Shown here: positions 9,659 to 17,502 of the stretch, piece after piece
Layout: every line of letters starts with the position of its first letter
Position numbering within the stretch: position 1 is the stretch's first letter
Made by a program: the position numbers and the translations under genes
Source of the DNA: Rhodopseudomonas palustris HaA2
Lineage (GTDB): Bacteria; Pseudomonadota; Alphaproteobacteria; Rhizobiales; Xanthobacteraceae
Length of the DNA: 64,000 bases
Assembly (NCBI RefSeq): GCF_000013365.1
Contig: NC_007778.1
Location: forward strand, 3,596,001 to 3,660,000
Direction: 5' to 3'
Notes under the pieces: model-generated
What the model was told of the DNA's origin: nothing
Database searches by the model: none
Seen by the model: only the letters and a program-made list of their open reading frames with translations

Positions 9659-9825
9659 CGCCACTGACGCCACTGATCTCTGCAAACGCGTCGCTTTCGC
9701 CACTGGCGACGCCACGCGAGCGGGCCCCTCCCGCTTCCGCCGCGGATGGCTGTCACCGCGGCGGTTCCAATTGAGCTCGGCGCGCGCGCGCTCTAGGGTG
9801 GCCAGCCCAGCTCACAACAGTGCCG

Positions 9826-11247
9826 ATGACCCGCAAACGATTCTCAAATTCAACTCTCGCGCCATGGCTGCTCGGCGCCACCCTGCTGCTGTTCATCGTC
9901 ATCGCCGGTGCGTTGATCCTGAATCTGATGCGGCTGCGCGACAGCTTCTCCTGGGTGCAGCACACCAACGACGCCCTGCTGGCGATTTCAGGCATCCAGC
10001 GCGAAGTGCTGGAAGCCGAGACCAACGAGCGCGGCTATCTGCTCACCGGCATCGACAGCTACCGCGAGAATTACAACCATACGCGGGACACACTGGCATC
10101 GCGGCTCGACAGCCTGCGCTCGATCGTCACCGACAACCCCGAACATGTCGCCCGGGTCGACGATCTCCGCCAGTTGATCGACATGCGGACGGCCCAGCTC
10201 GGGCGGGTCATCGAACTGGGGCCGGAGCGTGTGCGCGAGGCCCTCGACATTCTCGAGCAGGCCCGCACCGACCGGCTGACCGAACGCGTCGAAGCCAGCC
10301 TGAGCGCCCTCACCCGTGTCGAACAAGCCCTGCTGACGGAGCGCATGTCGCGGCACGATCACGAGAGCCTCGCGGCGGCGCTGATCACCGCCTGCCTGCT
10401 GATCCTCGCCGTCGCCAGCGCCGCGATCGCCGCATTTCTGCTCGAGCACCAGCGCGCCGCGGCGCGGCAGCAGGAGGCGGACCAGCGGCTGCAGAGCCTG
10501 CAGGCCGAATTGATGCGCGTGGCGCGGCTCAGCACCATGGGCGAGATGTCGAGCGCGCTGGCGCACGAGCTCAACCAGCCGCTCGGCGCGATCACCAACT
10601 ACGTGCAGGGCTCGCGCCGGCTGGTCGAGGCCAGCAGCCATCCCGACAAGGCGAAGATCGGCGCCGCGCTCGACAAGGCCGCGCAGCAGACGCTGCGCGC
10701 CGGTGCGGTGATCCAGCGACTGCGCGAATTCGTCGGCCGCGGCGAGACCGACAAGACGGTCGAGAGCCTGCGCGCGATCGCCGAGGACGCGCTGGCGCTC
10801 GCCTCCGTGGTCACGCGCGACCGCCCGGTCGACGTCGCGCTGACGCTCGATCCCGCGGTCGATCGCGTGCTGGTCGACAAGGTGCAGGTGCAGCAGGTCT
10901 TCCTCAACCTGTTCCGCAACGCCTTCGAGGCGATGCACGAACTCCCGGAACGGCTGCTCTCCATCACCAGCCGGGCCGTCGAGGACGGCATGATCGAGGT
11001 CGTGGTCGCCGATTCCGGTCCGGGTCTCGATCCGCAGATCGCCGACCGGATGTTCCAGCCGTTCGAGACCACCAAAGCGGAAGGCATGGGGATCGGCCTG
11101 TCGATCTCGCAGACCATCATCCAGGCTCATGGCGGCTCGATCAACGCCGAGCCCGCCCCAGCCGGCGGCACGATGTTCCGTTTCACTTTGCCCTGCGCCG
11201 ATCCCGGCGCACACGAGCCCCGCCCCGCCGCCGTCTCGGTGTTGTGA
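9826..11247 (+). CDS. CHASE3-domain sensor histidine kinase
   Basis: 473 residues from ATG 9826 (GTG 9820 is also possible; neither has a clear ribosome site). Two transmembrane helices (about 12-34 and 183-206) enclose a periplasmic CHASE3 domain with ETNERGYLLTG. A coiled-coil leads to the H-box MSSALAHELNQPLGAI, with phospho-acceptor His, of the FixL/DctB-like class. The ATPase follows: N-box NLFRNAFEAM, G1 DSGPGL and G2 GMGIGLSIS. No receiver domain or response-regulator gene lies next to it, so its partner is elsewhere. The upstream haem protein is the obvious candidate accessory sensor. Confidence 0.92.
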   Translation: MTRKRFSNSTLAPWLLGATLLLFIVIAGALILNLMRLRDSFSWVQHTNDALLAISGIQREVLEAETNERGYLLTGIDSYRENYNHTRDTLASRLDSLRSIVTDNPEHVARVDDLRQLIDMRTAQLGRVIELGPERVREALDILEQARTDRLTERVEASLSALTRVEQALLTERMSRHDHESLAAALITACLLILAVASAAIAAFLLEHQRAAARQQEADQRLQSLQAELMRVARLSTMGEMSSALAHELNQPLGAITNYVQGSRRLVEASSHPDKAKIGAALDKAAQQTLRAGAVIQRLREFVGRGETDKTVESLRAIAEDALALASVVTRDRPVDVALTLDPAVDRVLVDKVQVQQVFLNLFRNAFEAMHELPERLLSITSRAVEDGMIEVVVADSGPGLDPQIADRMFQPFETTKAEGMGIGLSISQTIIQAHGGSINAEPAPAGGTMFRFTLPCADPGAHEPRPAAVSVL

Positions 11248-11256
11248 GCGGCGCGC

Positions 11257-13638
11257 CTATCCGACGCCCTGCTTCTGCATCCCGCCGATCGCTCCCACCC
11301 GCTCGGCGAAATGATCGTACAGTCCGGCGAGTGCCGGCGGCGCAGCAGTCCGGCAGTTCGCCAGGGCCTCGGCTGCGGCCCGCGCATCGTCGGCCGCTAG
11401 CGCGTCCAACAGCGCGCGATGGCACCGCTGCAACTCGGCGAACTCCGGCGTCGCCGCGGCCTCCTCGTCGCCCGCAAGCGCGAAGAGCCGGGTCGGCTTC
11501 GACTTGCCCTTCAGCATGATCTCGCCGGCCTCGAGCAGCGCAATTCGCGGCGCGGCGCGGGCGACGTCTTCGGACACCAGCAAATCGGTGCCGAAGCTCT
11601 TCGACGCGCTCTCGATCCGGGCCGCGACGTTCACCACATCGCCCATCGCCGAGTAGTTGAAGCGCTTGGCCGAGCCCATGTTGCCGACGCAGGCCGCGCC
11701 GGTGTTGATGCCGACACCGATCCGCACCACCGGATCGTCAATGCCGCGCGCCGCGAAGCCGAAGGCGTCGGCGTCGTTGAGCTGCTCGACCACCGCGCGC
11801 ATCTTCAGCGCGGCGCGACAGGCGCGCGCGGCGTGATCCGGCACGTCGACCGGGGCGTTCCAGAACGCCATGATCGAGTCGCCGATGTATTTGTCGATCG
11901 TGCCGAGTTCGTCCTGGATCGCGTCGGACAGCGGCGACAGCAGCGTGTTGATGAAATCCACCAATTCGGTCGCGCTCAGCGTCTCCGAGATCGGGGTGAA
12001 ACCGCGCACGTCCATGAACATCACGCTGAGATCGCGGGTCTCGCCGCCGAGCCGCATTCCGTCGGGCGACTGCTCGAGCTTCGCCAGCAATTCCGGCGCG
12101 AGATACTGGCCGAACGCCTGGCGCGCGAATCTCTTCTCGCGGTCGGAGGCCATGTGCAGCACGCGCTCGACGGCGACATAGGTCAGCAGCGTCGCCAGCG
12201 ATGGATACACCGGGTCGATCAGCAGGCGGAAATGCGAGAACGCGATCCACGATCCGCCGATCGCGCCGAGAAACACCACGCCGCAGGCGATCAGCGAGAA
12301 CCGGGCGCCGGCGACCAGCAGCAGCGCCGCGACCAGCGAGCCCAGCAGCAGCGTCAGCACGATCTCGAAGCCGTCGGCCCAGTCCGGCCGCTCGATGAAG
12401 TCCTGAGCGATGATCTGCTCGATCATCTGGGCCTGGATCGCGACGCCCGGCATCACCTGGCCGAGCGGCGTGGCGCGGGCATCGAGCAGCCCCGCGGCGG
12501 AGGTGCCGACCAGCGCGATCATGCCCTCCAGCTTGTCGCGCATCTCGGCGTCCTTGGCCGGGTCGAGCACGTCCTTCACCGAAACGTATCGATCCCGGCG
12601 GTCGCGGTTGAAATACAGCCAGGCCTCGCCGTCGGGCGTCAGCGGCAGCTTGAACTGGCCGACCCGCATATCCAGCAGCGCGGCGTGCCCGGTGTCGGCC
12701 TCGCCGCTGGCGCCGGTGCCGCGCACCACGATGCCCTTCTGGTTCTGCGCGACGCGCAGCGCCTCGATCGCCAGGCTCGGATACACCCGCGCGCCGTCCG
12801 ACATCAGCATCGGCAGCCGGCGAACCACGCCGGATCGGTCGCGCGCCGACAGATTGATCGCGCCGATTCCCGCCGCAGCCTCGTCGAGCACCGGCAGATT
12901 GGAGACGGCGCCGCGGAACGGCGGCAGCACGAAGGCGGGTTGGACGCCGACGACGGCGAGCCCCGCTTTCACCGACGGCCGTGTCGCGTTGGCACGCTGG
13001 ATGGCGGCGAAACCGAGCACGGTCGGCGTCTTCTGCATCGCCTGCGCCAAGCTCTGATCGTGATCCGGCAGGCTCTTCAGCAGCGCGACGGTGAGATCGC
13101 GATCCGGCAGATCGGCATCGCCGAGTTCGCTGGCGAGGCGGCCCGGCGTGGTGCGGTCGGGCTCCGAGAAGATGATGTCGTAGGCCACGACGCCGACGCC
13201 GAGTTCACCCAGCCGTTTGGTCAGCGCCGCCAGCCGGGTGCGCGGCCACGGCCACTGCCCATAGGCGGCGAGCGACGCCTCGTCGATATCGACGATCCGC
13301 ACCGGAAGATCGGCGTGCGGCCGCGGTGACAATCGCTGATACGCGTCGAAGGCGCGTTCCTTGGTTTCATGGACCAGCCGCGGATCGTAAGTGCGCAGCG
13401 CCGTCAGCGCGATCAGCGTCAGCAGCGCCGCTGCAACCGCGCGCGCCGACTTGCTACGCGTCAGCCGTCGCAACCGGACCCAGACCGGCGCGGCGCGGGT
13501 CAGAAACGGATGCGCATCGCGGCTCAGCCGGCGCACGGTGTAAGCCCGCGCGTTGCGCCGCAGCAAGGCGATAAATCTCGACGATGGAACTGGCGCATGA
13601 GGCCGAACGTTGTCGGTTCGATGGCGGACCGGATGCAT
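11257..13638 (-). CDS. CHASE2-domain class III adenylate/guanylate cyclase
   Basis: 793 residues. An N-terminal transmembrane helix (around ARAVAAALLTLIALTAL) precedes an extracytoplasmic CHASE2 domain (VRIVDIDEASLAAYGQWPWP, VVAYDIIFSEPDR). Three further helices follow near 420-500, then a class III cyclase domain: FMDVRGFTPISE with the first metal Asp, DKYIGDSIMAFW with the second, and FNYSAMGDVVNVAARIE for the dimer interface. It should make cAMP or cGMP in the cytoplasm in response to a periplasmic signal; the nucleotide is not assigned. The downstream end faces the kinase gene. It is divergent from the TadG-like gene and 574 bases from the FecR gene, a frequent CHASE2 neighbour type. Confidence 0.92.
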   Translation of the reverse strand: MHPVRHRTDNVRPHAPVPSSRFIALLRRNARAYTVRRLSRDAHPFLTRAAPVWVRLRRLTRSKSARAVAAALLTLIALTALRTYDPRLVHETKERAFDAYQRLSPRPHADLPVRIVDIDEASLAAYGQWPWPRTRLAALTKRLGELGVGVVAYDIIFSEPDRTTPGRLASELGDADLPDRDLTVALLKSLPDHDQSLAQAMQKTPTVLGFAAIQRANATRPSVKAGLAVVGVQPAFVLPPFRGAVSNLPVLDEAAAGIGAINLSARDRSGVVRRLPMLMSDGARVYPSLAIEALRVAQNQKGIVVRGTGASGEADTGHAALLDMRVGQFKLPLTPDGEAWLYFNRDRRDRYVSVKDVLDPAKDAEMRDKLEGMIALVGTSAAGLLDARATPLGQVMPGVAIQAQMIEQIIAQDFIERPDWADGFEIVLTLLLGSLVAALLLVAGARFSLIACGVVFLGAIGGSWIAFSHFRLLIDPVYPSLATLLTYVAVERVLHMASDREKRFARQAFGQYLAPELLAKLEQSPDGMRLGGETRDLSVMFMDVRGFTPISETLSATELVDFINTLLSPLSDAIQDELGTIDKYIGDSIMAFWNAPVDVPDHAARACRAALKMRAVVEQLNDADAFGFAARGIDDPVVRIGVGINTGAACVGNMGSAKRFNYSAMGDVVNVAARIESASKSFGTDLLVSEDVARAAPRIALLEAGEIMLKGKSKPTRLFALAGDEEAAATPEFAELQRCHRALLDALAADDARAAAEALANCRTAAPPALAGLYDHFAERVGAIGGMQKQGVG

Positions 13639-13757: not shown

Positions 13758-14186
13758 ATGGCACGGATGGACACGCACGCGGGGCGCGTCGGCCCTCTGG
13801 TGGCCTTGCTGGCGCTGCCGGTCGCCGCCGTTGCGATCTACGCGGGAATGACGGTGGCCAAGGGCCATCCCCCGCTGCAACAGATCGCCAACGAGGCGGC
13901 GATCGCCGGCGTGCACGCGCTGGCCGCCAGCGATCATCGGACGGCGGAGGGCTGCGCCGCCGCCTCCACCGTCGCCGCGCGGCGCGTGATCGGCGATCGC
14001 CCCGCAATGATCCGCGCGGTTACGCCATCGTATGACAAATTGACGGTCTCGGTCGAACTGATCGATCCCGCGACCAATACCGAAGCAACCGCCACGGCGC
14101 GCTACGTTCCGCCGAGCACCGGCCTCGCCCCGCAGAAGGCTGCGGCGGTGTCCAATCATGCCAGCCCGCCGGCGCATCGCTTCTGA
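13758..14186 (+). CDS. Small TadG/TadE-like single-pass membrane protein
   Basis: 142 residues; ATG 13758 has GAAGGAG 7 bases upstream. The N-terminus GRVGPLVALLALPVAAVAIYAG followed by LQQIANEAAIAGVHALAA matches the pattern of TadG/TadE pilus-associated proteins (hydrophobic helix, then the ...LQ.AaDaAALAGa... stretch). Only the first ~130 residues of that plan are present, with no vWA domain. A Pro/Ala-rich tail ends the protein. No other tad/flp gene is in the window. It sits between the cyclase and the FecR gene, whose 3' end converges 25 bases away. Function unknown. Confidence 0.6.
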   Translation: MARMDTHAGRVGPLVALLALPVAAVAIYAGMTVAKGHPPLQQIANEAAIAGVHALAASDHRTAEGCAAASTVAARRVIGDRPAMIRAVTPSYDKLTVSVELIDPATNTEATATARYVPPSTGLAPQKAAAVSNHASPPAHRF

Positions 14187-14211: not shown

Positions 14212-15942
14212 TTATTTCATTTGCGCGGCGAAGATGCCGCCGCCGAGATAGTTGGTGCCGGTGATGGCCACGCTGCCGCCCATTTCGCCGACCGGACTCG
14301 ACACGCCGCGGAAGAAGCTTCCGGTCAGCGCCATCTGCCGCGCGCCGGCGTCTCCGGCGAGCGAACCGGCGAAGTAGCGCGGATCCTGCATGAACTGCAC
14401 CTGGCCGGCGTAGTTGGTGCTGTCGAGCCCGGTGACGGTGACCGCGCCGGTACGGTTGCCGAAGTTCACCGTGTTCTGGAAATTGCCGGTGGCGATATAG
14501 GTGGCGCTCTGGTTTTCGATCGCCGCGACCACATGGCCCGCATAGGTCGCCTGACCGGTCAGCGGAACCTCCCCGGCCGTGGTCGGCCGGCCGGCGACCC
14601 AGAATCCCACCAACGAGTCGTAATAGGAATACTGCGTGCTCTGGCTCGTCCAGAGACCCCACCTGGTGTAGTCGCAGTCGCAGATCGTGACGGTCGCGGA
14701 GCCGTAATTGGGCGCGATTTGCCGCGCCTGCTCGCGGTTCACCGTGATCATCGCGCCGGTCTGATTGATGATCGGCGCATTGTTGATCGTCGATATCGGT
14801 TGACCGTTGGCGTCTCGTGCCGGCCCGGCGCCGAAATTGCTGTAATCGCCATAGGCGCTCTGCTCGTCGGAATTGGCGCCGACCGAACCGTACTGATAGT
14901 TGAACGTCGTCGGCAGATACGCCGTGTTCGGACCGGGCGTCACCTCGCCGGAGAATTGCGCGTGCAACCGGTTGCCGTTGCCATCGAGCGCGATGGTCGC
15001 TTCGCCGGTCGCGATGCCGGTCGAGCCCGACGTGGAATAGCTGCTGTAGCTGGTCAGCACGCTGTGCATCAGGCCACCGAGGAAGCCGGACAGCGTCAGT
15101 GTGGGGCGCGCGCCGGCGTAGTCCCGTTCGGTCTGCCTCACCGCCGCCTCTTGGGTCGAGGTCTGGATCGTCTGGTTCAGCGTCGACGCGACCTGGTTGA
15201 TCGGCGGAGTCGCCGGCGGCGGCGGCGCTGGTGTCAGAGAGCCGACGACGGACCCACCCTGCGTGCCGGTGGCGCGGTTGGAGGCGCGCTGAACGTTGCC
15301 CGGCGAGGCCGCGCCGCGCGCGACGCCGCCGGACTGACCACTGCCGCTCTGGAACATCTGGATCTGGCTCAGCACGAAATTCGGCGGCGGCGGGCCAGGC
15401 GGCGACGGCGGCTGGCCGCCCTGCATCGAGGTGTATTCGCCGGCCCCGAGCGTCACGCTCGATCCGCCGGAGCGGACCGTCGAGGTGCCGTAGCCGGCAT
15501 AGACGTGGTTGGTGCCGATCAGCGCCACACCGCCGCGGATGCCGACGGTCGCCGAGGCGGTCTTGATCTCGGCGTCGCCGGTGTGGCTGATCTGGCCGCC
15601 GACGAAGCGCAGCGCGCCCTTGCCGAGCGTCGCTGCCAGCTTGCCGCTGCCGGCATTCGGGTCATAGACGTATTCGTCGATGGTCAGATCGCTGTTCGGG
15701 CCGATCGTCATCGACGTCTTGTCGATGAACAACAGCTGCACCGAGCCGGCCGAGGTGGTCTGGATCCGTTCCTTGTGGGTGATCGACGCGCCGATGGTGA
15801 TGGTGCGCATGTTGGCGGTGGCGTTCGGATTGACCGCCGACGCCTTGCCGACCTCCCGCGCAAGCGCGCTGCCGGAGAGCAGCGCCGCGGCCAGCGCCGC
15901 CGCCATCCCCTGCCCGATCCGTCGTCCCGAATGCCGTCGCAT
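14212..15942 (-). CDS. Secreted FecR-domain protein with C-terminal TbpB-like beta-barrel
   Basis: 576 residues; ATG 15942 has GAGGAG 7 bases upstream. A cleavable Sec signal ends at SGSALA (about residue 28) with no lipobox. Residues ~48-145 form a FecR domain (VQLLFIDKTSMTIGPNSDL, ATVGIRGGVALIG). A low-complexity Gly/Pro/Gln region follows. The last ~140 residues read like the TbpB-type eight-stranded barrel: LTGQATYAGHVVAAI, TVNFGNRTGAVTVTGL, GSFFRGVSSPVGEMGGSV and a terminal GGGIFAAQMK. Such barrels mark cargo of Slam (type XI) translocons, and a Slam-like gene lies 11 bases upstream in the same operon. FecR call firm; barrel call from visible pattern only. Confidence 0.78.
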   Translation of the reverse strand: MRRHSGRRIGQGMAAALAAALLSGSALAREVGKASAVNPNATANMRTITIGASITHKERIQTTSAGSVQLLFIDKTSMTIGPNSDLTIDEYVYDPNAGSGKLAATLGKGALRFVGGQISHTGDAEIKTASATVGIRGGVALIGTNHVYAGYGTSTVRSGGSSVTLGAGEYTSMQGGQPPSPPGPPPPNFVLSQIQMFQSGSGQSGGVARGAASPGNVQRASNRATGTQGGSVVGSLTPAPPPPATPPINQVASTLNQTIQTSTQEAAVRQTERDYAGARPTLTLSGFLGGLMHSVLTSYSSYSTSGSTGIATGEATIALDGNGNRLHAQFSGEVTPGPNTAYLPTTFNYQYGSVGANSDEQSAYGDYSNFGAGPARDANGQPISTINNAPIINQTGAMITVNREQARQIAPNYGSATVTICDCDYTRWGLWTSQSTQYSYYDSLVGFWVAGRPTTAGEVPLTGQATYAGHVVAAIENQSATYIATGNFQNTVNFGNRTGAVTVTGLDSTNYAGQVQFMQDPRYFAGSLAGDAGARQMALTGSFFRGVSSPVGEMGGSVAITGTNYLGGGIFAAQMK

Positions 15943-15953
15943 CGCCGATCTCC

Positions 15954-17282
15954 TCAGAAGCGCAGCGTCGGGCCGATCGAGGCCGACAGATTGTTGGTGC
16001 GGTAGTTGGGCAGGTTGGAGTCGATCTTGGTGTAGCTCACCTGGGTGCGCAGCCCGATATTGTCGACGAGTTGCGCATCGAAGATCGCGCCGTAGCGATA
16101 TTCCTGATCGCGCCGGACGATCACCGGATCGACGATGAAATTCGGCGCTTCGTAATTGGCCTGGCTGAACCCCGCCGTCGGCGCGAACACGAAGGCGCGC
16201 TGCGCGCCGAACACCGTCGCGACGAATTCGATCGGCAACGCGACGTCGATCGAATAGCGCTTGTAGCTGTTGTAATCGGCGATGGCCTTGTTGCTGTCGA
16301 AACCGGCGCGCGTGGTCCAGTGCACCCCGCCCCAGCGGAAGTCGGTCAGCACCGCCGCGGTCAGCAGGTCGCCGGTCTGGTCGCTGGCGGTGGGAAAATA
16401 AGTCGAGTCGCTGAAGCGGCGGTGTCGCGTCTCGACATAGCCCTCGACCAGGCCGAGGCTGCCGAGCTGGGTGCGGGCCGACAGGCCGCCGCCGAGCGCG
16501 TTGAAGTAGCTGTAATTGCCGAGCCAGACCTTGTCGCCGATGCCGTAATATTTGAAAGACGAATTCTGGCCGAGACCGACGCGATGGCCGGCGGTGATCT
16601 CGACGAAGCCGAGATTGAACTGGCTCAGCGTCATCTGCCGGGAATTCAGGCCGAGGAACGTGGTCTCGATCGCGTCGCCGCGCAGATTGAGCTTGTAGGC
16701 GTAGCTCGCCGCGACGGTCTGGAACGTGCTCCAGTCCGGCTTTTTGCCGAAGCGCGGATCGAGAATGGCGTCCTGTCCGAGGGCGCGCACCTGCTGGCCG
16801 TTCGGGCCGATATTGGCGTTGGTCTGATAGCGCATGCCGGCGTGCATGAACACGCTGTATTCGTATGTCGCCAGCCGTCGATCGATCTCGGCGAGATAGG
16901 CCATCACCTGCGCGCGGATGTCGTCGGGCGCGTTGCTGCCCTTGATCGCGTCGATCAGATAGCCGCGCGCGATCTCGTAGGAGGCGAGCTTGAAGTACAA
17001 CACGCCGAGTTCGAGCTTCACCCGCGGCAGATCCGGATTGAAGAACAGCATCCGCTCCAGCGCGCCGATCGCCGCCTCGTAGTCGCCGCGCTCCACCGCC
17101 TCACGCGCGAATTTGAAGCTGACGTCGAGATCGGCCGGCCGCTGATACATCTGCGCGAACAGCGCGTCGTAGTCCGGCTGCGTGGCGGAGACCGGAACCG
17201 GCCCGCTTTGCTGCGCCGCGGCGCCCGACACGGCGACGCCGATCGCCGCCAGCGAGCCGAAGATGATTGCCCGAAACGTCAC
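15954..17282 (-). CDS. Slam-like outer-membrane protein (TPR + DUF560 beta-barrel)
   Basis: 442 residues. I use GTG 17282 because GGAG lies 6 bases upstream and a clean Sec signal follows (MTFRAIIFGSLAAIGVAVSG...); TTG 17300 is the longer option. After the signal, TPR-like helices (GDYEAAIGALERMLFFNPDLPR, split between two repeats) lead to a beta-barrel starting at HAGMRYQTNANIGPNG and ending SIGPTLRF with terminal Phe. TPR plus a DUF560 barrel is the plan of Slam/TXISS translocons, which move TbpB-barrel cargo across the outer membrane. The following gene encodes such a cargo-like protein, so they probably form a translocon-cargo pair. Confidence 0.78.
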   Translation of the reverse strand: MTFRAIIFGSLAAIGVAVSGAAAQQSGPVPVSATQPDYDALFAQMYQRPADLDVSFKFAREAVERGDYEAAIGALERMLFFNPDLPRVKLELGVLYFKLASYEIARGYLIDAIKGSNAPDDIRAQVMAYLAEIDRRLATYEYSVFMHAGMRYQTNANIGPNGQQVRALGQDAILDPRFGKKPDWSTFQTVAASYAYKLNLRGDAIETTFLGLNSRQMTLSQFNLGFVEITAGHRVGLGQNSSFKYYGIGDKVWLGNYSYFNALGGGLSARTQLGSLGLVEGYVETRHRRFSDSTYFPTASDQTGDLLTAAVLTDFRWGGVHWTTRAGFDSNKAIADYNSYKRYSIDVALPIEFVATVFGAQRAFVFAPTAGFSQANYEAPNFIVDPVIVRRDQEYRYGAIFDAQLVDNIGLRTQVSYTKIDSNLPNYRTNNLSASIGPTLRF

Positions 17283-17502
17283 ACTGCACTCCGAAATCAA
17301 TAGTCTCGAAACCGATTGTTCGATCGTTCAAGTCAATTGGTCGGGAGTTTGCGGGCAACGTTCGGCCAGCGGTACCATTTTTTGCGCGAACGGACCGCGT
17401 TTGCCCCCCGTCGTGACTTTTGTGTCACGCCGGGGGCGCTGAAATGTCCTGAAATTGAACGAGATCACACAAAACGCTGCGAGATTGGGCAAGCGCGCCG
17501 GC

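Follow-up and report, generated by a model that had tools for sequence, protein, structure and literature searches.

In a 64,000-nucleotide stretch of the Rhodopseudomonas palustris HaA2 genome (contig NC_007778.1, positions 3,596,001 to 3,660,000; hereafter the window), three genes on the minus strand encode, from 5' to 3', an outer-membrane protein (OMP) with tetratricopeptide repeats (TPRs), a protein that joins a FecR domain to a C-terminal barrel, and a CHASE2 adenylate/guanylate cyclase (Table 1). The first-pass annotation of this DNA had read the first two genes as a translocon of the Slam (surface lipoprotein assembly modifier) or type XI secretion system (T11SS) kind, paired with a FecR-TbpB barrel fusion. 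Coordinates and structural models agree that a TPR-plus-barrel OMP lies upstream of the FecR gene, across a gap of 11 bases (15943-15953). The two-gene reading holds for the pair but overlooked a recurrent third gene, the CHASE2 cyclase. The window's own genome has a single match to the OMP and a single match to the Slam-cargo profile slam_lipo, both at this locus, and the nearest relatives of the window are Rhodopseudomonas species. Sequence comparisons suggest that the core of the system is the OMP and the FecR protein, often with the cyclase, in an arrangement resembling NsrA-CyaK of Sinorhizobium meliloti, and that a Slam-cargo barrel is part of it in some lineages.

Table 1. Features of the locus, with positions counted from the first nucleotide of the window and residues counted in the encoded protein
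Feature	Position	Strand	Basis or remark
OMP gene	15954..17282	-	GTG start, 442 aa; alternative TTG start at 17300 possible
OMP: signal peptide, ~3 TPRs, predicted 14-stranded barrel; divergent relative of Slam/T11SS OMPs	15954..17282	-	
OMP TPR region, ~residues 35-137	16872..17180	-	Pfam TPR families; six model helices; TPR_Slam in relatives
OMP barrel, ~residues 140-442	15957..16865	-	Model; barrel-only profile comparison; C-terminal sequence end
FecR-barrel gene	14212..15942	-	ATG start, 576 aa; apparent Sec-type signal without lipobox
FecR domain, residues 59-139	15526..15768	-	PF04773
Linker with Pro-rich stretches, ~residues 178-275, from FecR domain to C-terminal module	15118..15411	-	Sequence
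CxC (residues 421-423) of the CDCDYTRWGLW motif, N-terminal to the barrel	14674..14682	-	Alignment of relatives
Predicted eight-stranded barrel of TbpB/Slam-cargo type, residues 464-575	14218..14553	-	Model, Foldseek, slam_lipo
Third gene: CHASE2 adenylate/guanylate cyclase, with CHASE2 domain at 74-434 and cyclase domain at 535-716	11257..13638	-	PF05226 E 5e-60, PF00211 E 2e-21
142-codon open reading frame between FecR and cyclase genes	13758-14186	+	48-79% identity in six other loci

The FecR domain is recognised by PF04773 at E 4.2e-7 (30.8 bits, above the cut-off of 24). Ahead of it, the N-terminus reads by eye as a Sec-type signal ending in ...SALA-REV with no cysteine, in keeping with the earlier claim that the signal lacks a lipobox. 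A loose lipobox pattern matches 3/42 FecR-barrel proteins; two of these matches precede the hydrophobic core and the third falls outside the stretch inspected. We did not find the arrangement of classical FecR anti-sigma proteins, in which a cytoplasmic anti-sigma segment is N-terminal: here an apparent signal peptide precedes the FecR domain, and no Pfam family lies N-terminal to it. A phmmer search against PDB sequences returned nothing useful for this protein.

The C-terminal module resembles the barrels of Slam cargo. The NCBIfam profile slam_lipo (NF041636) matches residues 428-565 at E 3.5e-8 to 1e-8, with scores (33.9, 37.3 and 35.6 bits) short of its curated cut-off of 80 bits, and it was found in 15/15 aligned relatives at E values up to 1 (best 2e-12). 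Pfam FHBP_C was found in 15/15 and TbpB_B_D in 10/15 of these relatives, the window protein itself scoring below the curated cut-offs. An AlphaFold2 model of the module, made from a 15-row alignment, reached a predicted local distance difference test score (pLDDT) of 90.7 and a predicted template modelling score (pTM) of 0.90, and consists of a beta-rich first part followed by eight strands. Among the 50 PDB matches that Foldseek listed for it (best E 5e-10), 49 are TbpB, LbpB, HphA, NHBA, fHbp or haemophilin chains and the 50th is AlgE; with whole TbpB the two-domain module has low TM-scores (~0.4 by query), whereas the score by target rises to 0.71 with NHBA. On model and fold search we rejected a chance Gly-rich C-terminus, and the C-terminal end of the FecR protein is predicted to be an eight-stranded, TbpB-type barrel of the Slam-cargo kind, as first proposed.

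Just ahead of the barrel, a CxC is invariant in 15/15 aligned relatives and could possibly be a disulphide or metal site. The looser motif CxCx[YF]xx[WFY]GxW occurs in 33/43 other barrel proteins, 42/43 of which have a FecR match, versus 0/12 barrel proteins near canonical Slams. The FecR-barrel proteins thus look like a class of their own, which favours the earlier suggestion of a new cargo class. In one relative (L005, 6484-7740), several dozen prolines follow one another in the linker ahead of the C-terminal module.

The OMP matches Pfam TPR families at E values down to 4.7e-6, below their cut-offs, and phmmer against PDB sequences matched it through its TPRs only. The structural model of the OMP comprises six helices followed by 14 long strands if a broken strand (313-330) is counted once (pLDDT 85.7, pTM 0.74), and so shows the N-terminal TPRs and 14-stranded barrel of Slam/T11SS OMPs. 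The profile TPR_Slam (PF24575) was found in 19/19 OMP relatives with E values no higher than 1 (9.8e-4 at best, 0.03 for the window protein), and the C-terminal end of the OMP, SNLPNY...GPTLRF, resembles the SN[IL]..Y...F ends of several Slams. Pfam SlipAM (DUF560, PF04575) did not match the window OMP (P0001), matched 1/19 of its relatives (E 0.014), and gave one match in 198 genomes of the window's family (G058, E 4e-4), none of these family matches exceeding the cut-off. Five OMPs of the same clade, in G280, G377, G473, G292 and G361, do exceed it. SlipAM searches gave matches in 0/14 control genomes and 31/289 genomes of the class.

Profile comparisons point to remote homology. A profile built from 12 canonical Slams of Alphaproteobacteria, which leaves out L076, L077 and L078 (the last a FecR-linked relative), finds the window OMP at E 1.5e-24 in hmmsearch and its barrel alone at 1.3e-5. 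When barrels were compared by hhalign with the TPR part removed, the probability was 98.7 (E 2.4e-16, 279 columns); the window barrel as a single sequence gave a probability of 85.9 in the same comparison, and the decoys (single-sequence PgaA, BcsC, FadL and NsrA barrels, five column shuffles and one reversal) all stayed below 3. In the reverse direction, searching the class sample with the profile of the window OMP's family (A2) recovers canonical Slams, with matches extending into the barrel (G254 3e-13, G364 1e-11, G236 4e-11). The Slam likeness claimed at first is in this sense upheld, though below the SlipAM cut-off, and the OMP is almost certainly a distant relative of the Slam/T11SS OMPs. 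In a quick tree of 88 OMPs, which leaves out four fragmentary loci, a branch with support 98 separates the canonical Slams from the other OMPs. The 50 PDB matches listed for the OMP model are not decisive: they include porins (CymA best, OmpG, FadL), with the polysaccharide channel BcsC, itself a TPR-barrel protein, second, and no Slam. A polysaccharide porin of the PgaA/BcsC type was rejected, as the OMP has no sequence match to either although BcsC is the second-best fold match.

To place the pair in a wider context, we drew 289 genomes evenly across the class; the statistics below treat loci and genomes as independent and ignore relatedness. A2 matched in 62/289 genomes and the FecR-barrel profile (A1) in 20/289, and 19 of these 20 also had an A2 match, as did 43/269 of the others (Fisher 3e-13, the window's own genome included). 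The remaining A1 genome, G449, has a SlipAM match instead. The neighbourhood tally draws on some, but not all, of the SlipAM-matching class genomes. It covers 53 A2-like OMP loci, with an OMP in two pieces (L171) counted once, an A2 place at a contig end (G424:C58) left out and five loci below the 60-bit bar (L124, L132, L198-L200) not counted; FecR lies nearby in four of the uncounted loci (L132, L198, L199, L200), and a cyclase match in two (L132 and, partial, L198). A FecR gene adjoins the OMP gene on the same strand in 37 of the 53 loci, downstream in 36, which bears out the expected conservation of the gene linkage. A cyclase lies within 6 kb in 23 loci, two of these cyclases being cut by contig ends (L147, L187), and 21/53 have both FecR and cyclase; 29 of the 35 cyclase matches in the scanned loci span CHASE2 and the catalytic part.

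By comparison, 12 loci in the tally are canonical, meaning that the canonical-profile score exceeds 1.5 times the A2 score. They are not the same 12 Slams from which the profile was built: eight overlap, and the other four of the profile (L072-L075) lie outside the tally. None of the canonical loci has FecR or a cyclase nearby (against the A2-like loci, Fisher 8e-6 for FecR and 0.005 for the cyclase, the loci not being independent); in seven of them, some other TbpB-like barrel protein is encoded within 2.5 kb. The barrel profile bar3 was iterated on open reading frames that include canonical cargo, so its matches there are partly self-made; given separately, the uniterated A1 profile finds a barrel protein adjoining a canonical Slam in L160 (2e-6) and one near a canonical Slam in L133 (2e-4).

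The barrel is less constant than the pair. It was recognised in 14/37 FecR neighbours of the OMP, and eight of the 53 loci combine a FecR-barrel protein with a cyclase (L121, L122, L141, L145, L147, L148, L153, L159). Among the 23 FecR neighbours without a recognised barrel, seven have frames of no more than 354 codons between stops, too short for one, and two are truncated by a contig end; the remaining 14 are longer, and a barrel may have escaped recognition in them. The conserved pairing is thus that of the OMP with FecR: the pairing first proposed stands as far as FecR is concerned, and a recognised barrel is not a constant part of it. Of the two outcomes named at first as refutations, a C-terminus that does not fold as an eight-stranded barrel and an OMP of another porin family with no conserved linkage to FecR, neither was observed. 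FecR and barrel counts are lower bounds, because some loci lie at contig ends (L166, L177, L185, L187). In two genomes, G478 with five A1 matches (L143, L150-L152, L158) and G357 with two (L142, L146), long FecR-barrel proteins are scattered with one OMP match elsewhere per genome, as if one pore served many such proteins.

Within the window's family (198 genomes), the FecR-barrel C-terminus occurs in 23 genomes, all of which also have an OMP match; OMP matches, some weak, occur in 61/198 overall. By coordinates, the two genes are adjacent in 11/11 genomes of the window's genus and in three that belong to two further genera; in nine genomes of a single genus (Nitrobacter-type), they are separated by tens of kilobases or sit on separate contigs. 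In the three Nitrobacter-type genomes examined (L045-L047), the OMP adjoins a CHASE2 cyclase and the FecR-barrel gene is elsewhere; an apparent case of FecR-barrel proteins without the OMP in Nitrobacter was rejected, the OMP being present elsewhere in those genomes. Loci L015-L023, most of them from Afipia, have the OMP gene next to a FecR gene that lacks the barrel, with no cyclase found in the stretch examined. The barrel-less FecR proteins of five of these loci (L015, L016, L018, L019, L021) have cysteines in short C-terminal tails, e.g., CYGYCY. FecR and CHASE2 also occur as neighbours without a detected relative of the window OMP in L024, L026 and Methylosinus.

Beyond the class the family thins: in a sample of 259 genomes from the whole phylum, A2 matches 13 genomes and A1 three, a strong A1 match being confined to the window's own genome. 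Outside Pseudomonadota, a Kiritimatiellia metagenome-assembled genome (L027) has a weak, mainly TPR-based OMP relative, a FecR protein and a CHASE2 cyclase together on one strand. These distributions suggest that the OMP-FecR pair is old, and its linkage extends well beyond the window's family. In the quick tree, loci with the barrel are spread over several deep branches (L121/L122, L157, L176, L141/L147). Either the barrel is ancestral, a Slam cargo with a FecR head that was lost repeatedly while OMP and FecR were kept, or it was gained several times; the tree, with 25 weak forks and seven changes of the barrel label, is too weak to settle the direction.

The locus can be compared with several known systems. 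It shares with Slam/T11SS an OMP homologous over TPRs and barrel and an adjacent protein with a terminal TbpB-type barrel. It differs in that the window OMP falls below the SlipAM cut-off, its clade lies across the support-98 branch, the head of the cargo is FecR, a CHASE2 cyclase is often linked, and many relatives lack a recognised barrel. Slam is reported to move unfolded TbpB across the outer membrane with the help of Skp, a C-terminal cargo motif being proposed as what is recognised (PMC9090332), and DUF560 OMPs of a second subfamily to secrete soluble, non-lipidated cargo (PMC8406197). The same 2021 T11SS paper considers it likely that unstudied OMP clusters move as-yet-unknown cargo (PMC8406197).

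A second likeness is to NsrA-CyaK of S. meliloti, in which FecR, TPRs and an outer-membrane barrel neighbour a CHASE2 adenylate cyclase; the same parts are present in the window, spread over two chains. The window cyclase is 32% identical to CyaK over 755 columns, and directly upstream of cyaK a single 1190-residue chain carries FecR, TPRs and a barrel. This chain is annotated only as a FecR domain protein, and we take it to be NsrA from its place before cyaK and its length. Unlike the window's pair, it is one chain, its barrel shows no relation to that of Slam and of the window OMP, and no TbpB-type barrel was found in it. Its barrel scored a probability below 1 against the A2 and Slam profiles, and homology to the window OMP barrel was rejected, the profile comparison detecting no relation. 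The length of the chain fits the barrel portion of 600-1200 given for NsrA (PMC7529298). NsrA is reported to be essential if the cyclases CyaK and CyaD1/D2 are to signal (PMC7529298), which are described as CHASE2 cyclases (PMC13001267), and to act as an outer-membrane receptor for CHASE2-cyclase cyclic AMP (cAMP) signalling (PMC7529298, PMC13001267).

Similar groupings occur farther afield. A Campylobacterota cluster is reported to bring together a FecR-domain OMP, a TPR protein, a CHASE2 cyclase and a phosphodiesterase; the published passages compared name no Slam-type OMP or cargo barrel (PMC9239204). The Burkholderia BiofilmReg operon likewise has a FecR protein beside a CHASE2 sensor (PMC5192318); unlike the window, it has a LysM head and a histidine kinase output, and the main text of that paper contains neither 'TPR' nor 'outer membrane' (PMC5192318).

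Taken together, we propose that the locus is a three-part module in which protein export is coupled to cAMP signalling, a reading to which we assign a probability of roughly 0.5. The OMP and the FecR protein very probably work together. The OMP would export the TbpB-type barrel module at the C-terminus of its neighbour, if not more of that protein, with the barrel serving as export signal and surface end of the FecR-barrel protein, and such outward movement of the barrel is probable. As the OMP-FecR(-cyclase) core persists without the barrel, export of the barrel cannot be the only task of the OMP, which probably also acts as a receptor or scaffold for FecR. The enzyme beside the pair likely makes cAMP and, from its conserved linkage and from NsrA-CyaK, would be the output: a periplasmic CHASE2 domain would read FecR and/or the TPRs of the OMP and set cAMP synthesis. 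For the module as a whole, we lean slightly towards such a cAMP output.

The location of the FecR domain is central to this proposal. If FecR and TPRs lie beneath an outer-membrane barrel in the S. meliloti chain, FecR is probably periplasmic here too, and most likely it would remain so. That FecR is periplasmic while the barrel is outside is a tentative combination, with the odds somewhat against it. The LapA retention module anchors its chain in an outer-membrane pore from the periplasmic side. The corresponding profile (NCBIfam retention_LapA, NF033682) matches the window's FecR region at 20.2 bits (E 5e-4), short of its cut-off of 50 bits, and 14/23 scanned FecR regions at E up to 0.1 (best 7.6e-8), all those displayed being below the cut-off. 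This likeness is a hint only, as profiles of the Leptospira surface proteins Lsa33 (21/23) and LipL45 (19/23) match FecR regions as widely, the window's region (15391-15942) being below their cut-offs too. The original suggestion that FecR sits on or beyond the cell surface finds no support in these data. In the S. meliloti chain, domain order puts FecR on the periplasmic side of a barrel, and there is the weak likeness to the LapA module.

Several observations weigh against a three-part signalling module. The window OMP goes unmatched by SlipAM, the second-best PDB match of its model is BcsC, and the NsrA barrel has no detectable relation to its own. The likeness of FecR regions to Leptospira surface proteins gives no argument for a periplasmic place. 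A cyclase is lacking within 6 kb in 30/53 OMP loci, and 16/53 have no adjacent FecR. Cyclases are equally frequent with the barrel (8/14) and without it (13/23; Fisher p 1), so nothing ties the barrel to signalling, and with 23/37 FecR neighbours lacking a recognised barrel, barrel export cannot be demonstrated as the general job of the clade. Finally, the opposite-strand frame between the FecR and cyclase genes, for which the Pfam scan gave no match, is conserved in the Rhodopseudomonas loci L003-L007 and L014, and therefore the window trio is not one simple operon. No such frame was found in L008 and L009, where the cyclase gene directly abuts or overlaps that of FecR. On the other side of the cyclase gene, the window has a CHASE3 histidine kinase gene (HisKA and HATPase; 9820-11247, plus strand).

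An unlikely alternative, in line with the first-pass annotation, is that the FecR-barrel protein is plain T11SS cargo, secreted entire by the OMP in the manner of haemophilin, FecR included, with the cyclase a mere neighbour. An apparently non-lipidated Sec-type signal and a TbpB-type barrel, as in soluble DUF560-dependent cargo (PMC8406197), an OMP homologous to Slams, the many scattered FecR-barrel proteins per OMP match in G478 and G357, as for a multi-cargo translocon, and the below-cut-off resemblance of FecR regions to Leptospira surface proteins all agree with it. It leaves unaccounted for the cyclase within 6 kb of 23/53 OMP loci versus 0/12 canonical Slam loci, the 23/37 FecR partners without a recognised barrel, and the analogous NsrA chain, in which FecR and TPRs precede the outer-membrane barrel. 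Quite unlikely, in our view, is a purely periplasmic signalling complex in which the OMP is a receptor, FecR its partner, and the TbpB-type barrel stays in the periplasm as an interaction module. The maintenance of OMP-FecR(-cyclase) without a recognised barrel, the composition of NsrA-CyaK, and the FecR-CHASE2 neighbours without a detected OMP relative (L024, L026 and Methylosinus, as well as Burkholderia; PMC5192318) would fit such a complex; however, proteins exported by Slam have this same barrel fold, the OMP itself is related to Slam, and the co-occurrence in 19 of 20 genomes would then reflect ancestry alone. A third alternative, very improbable, would make the OMP a channel of the porin or polysaccharide type and FecR a structural domain in the periplasm, with a gene order that is historical. 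The porin and BcsC fold matches of the OMP speak for it; against it, the OMP has no sequence relation to PgaA, BcsC or FadL, the gene order is held across many families, and the genes co-occur where they are apart.

Within the export-coupled signalling module, one specific form would be a trans-envelope sensor that works by partial export: the pore would bring the barrel to the surface, and FecR, kept in the periplasm as a retention module on the linker with its Pro-rich stretches, would control the CHASE2 cyclase. We regard this form as speculative and rather unlikely. If true, surface ligand binding or failed export would be read out as cAMP, and the secretion pore would itself be the signalling receptor, which would explain why the OMP-FecR-cyclase core outlives the barrel.

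In a literature search that mostly did not reach subscription journals, we found no paper joining DUF560, 'surface lipoprotein assembly modifier' or the LapA retention module with FecR, and only a Lysobacter siderophore paper matched FecR together with TbpB and Slam. An Acinetobacter paper contains both 'FecR domain' and 'transferrin-binding protein-like'; within the text matched by the search, no paper pairs 'FecR domain' with a term for T11SS or Slam. Neither 'FecR' nor 'cyclase' occurs in the main text of two surveys of T11SS (PMC12282271, PMC8406197). What CHASE2 domains recognise was described as unknown in 2016 (PMC5192318). With the linkage reported here, a large alphaproteobacterial clade of Slam relatives gains a defined partner, FecR, sometimes with a cargo barrel, and an unexpected neighbour in the CHASE2 cyclase. 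This suggests a new link between protein display at the surface and signalling inside the cell, and joins the question of what Slam relatives move to that of what CHASE2 reads.

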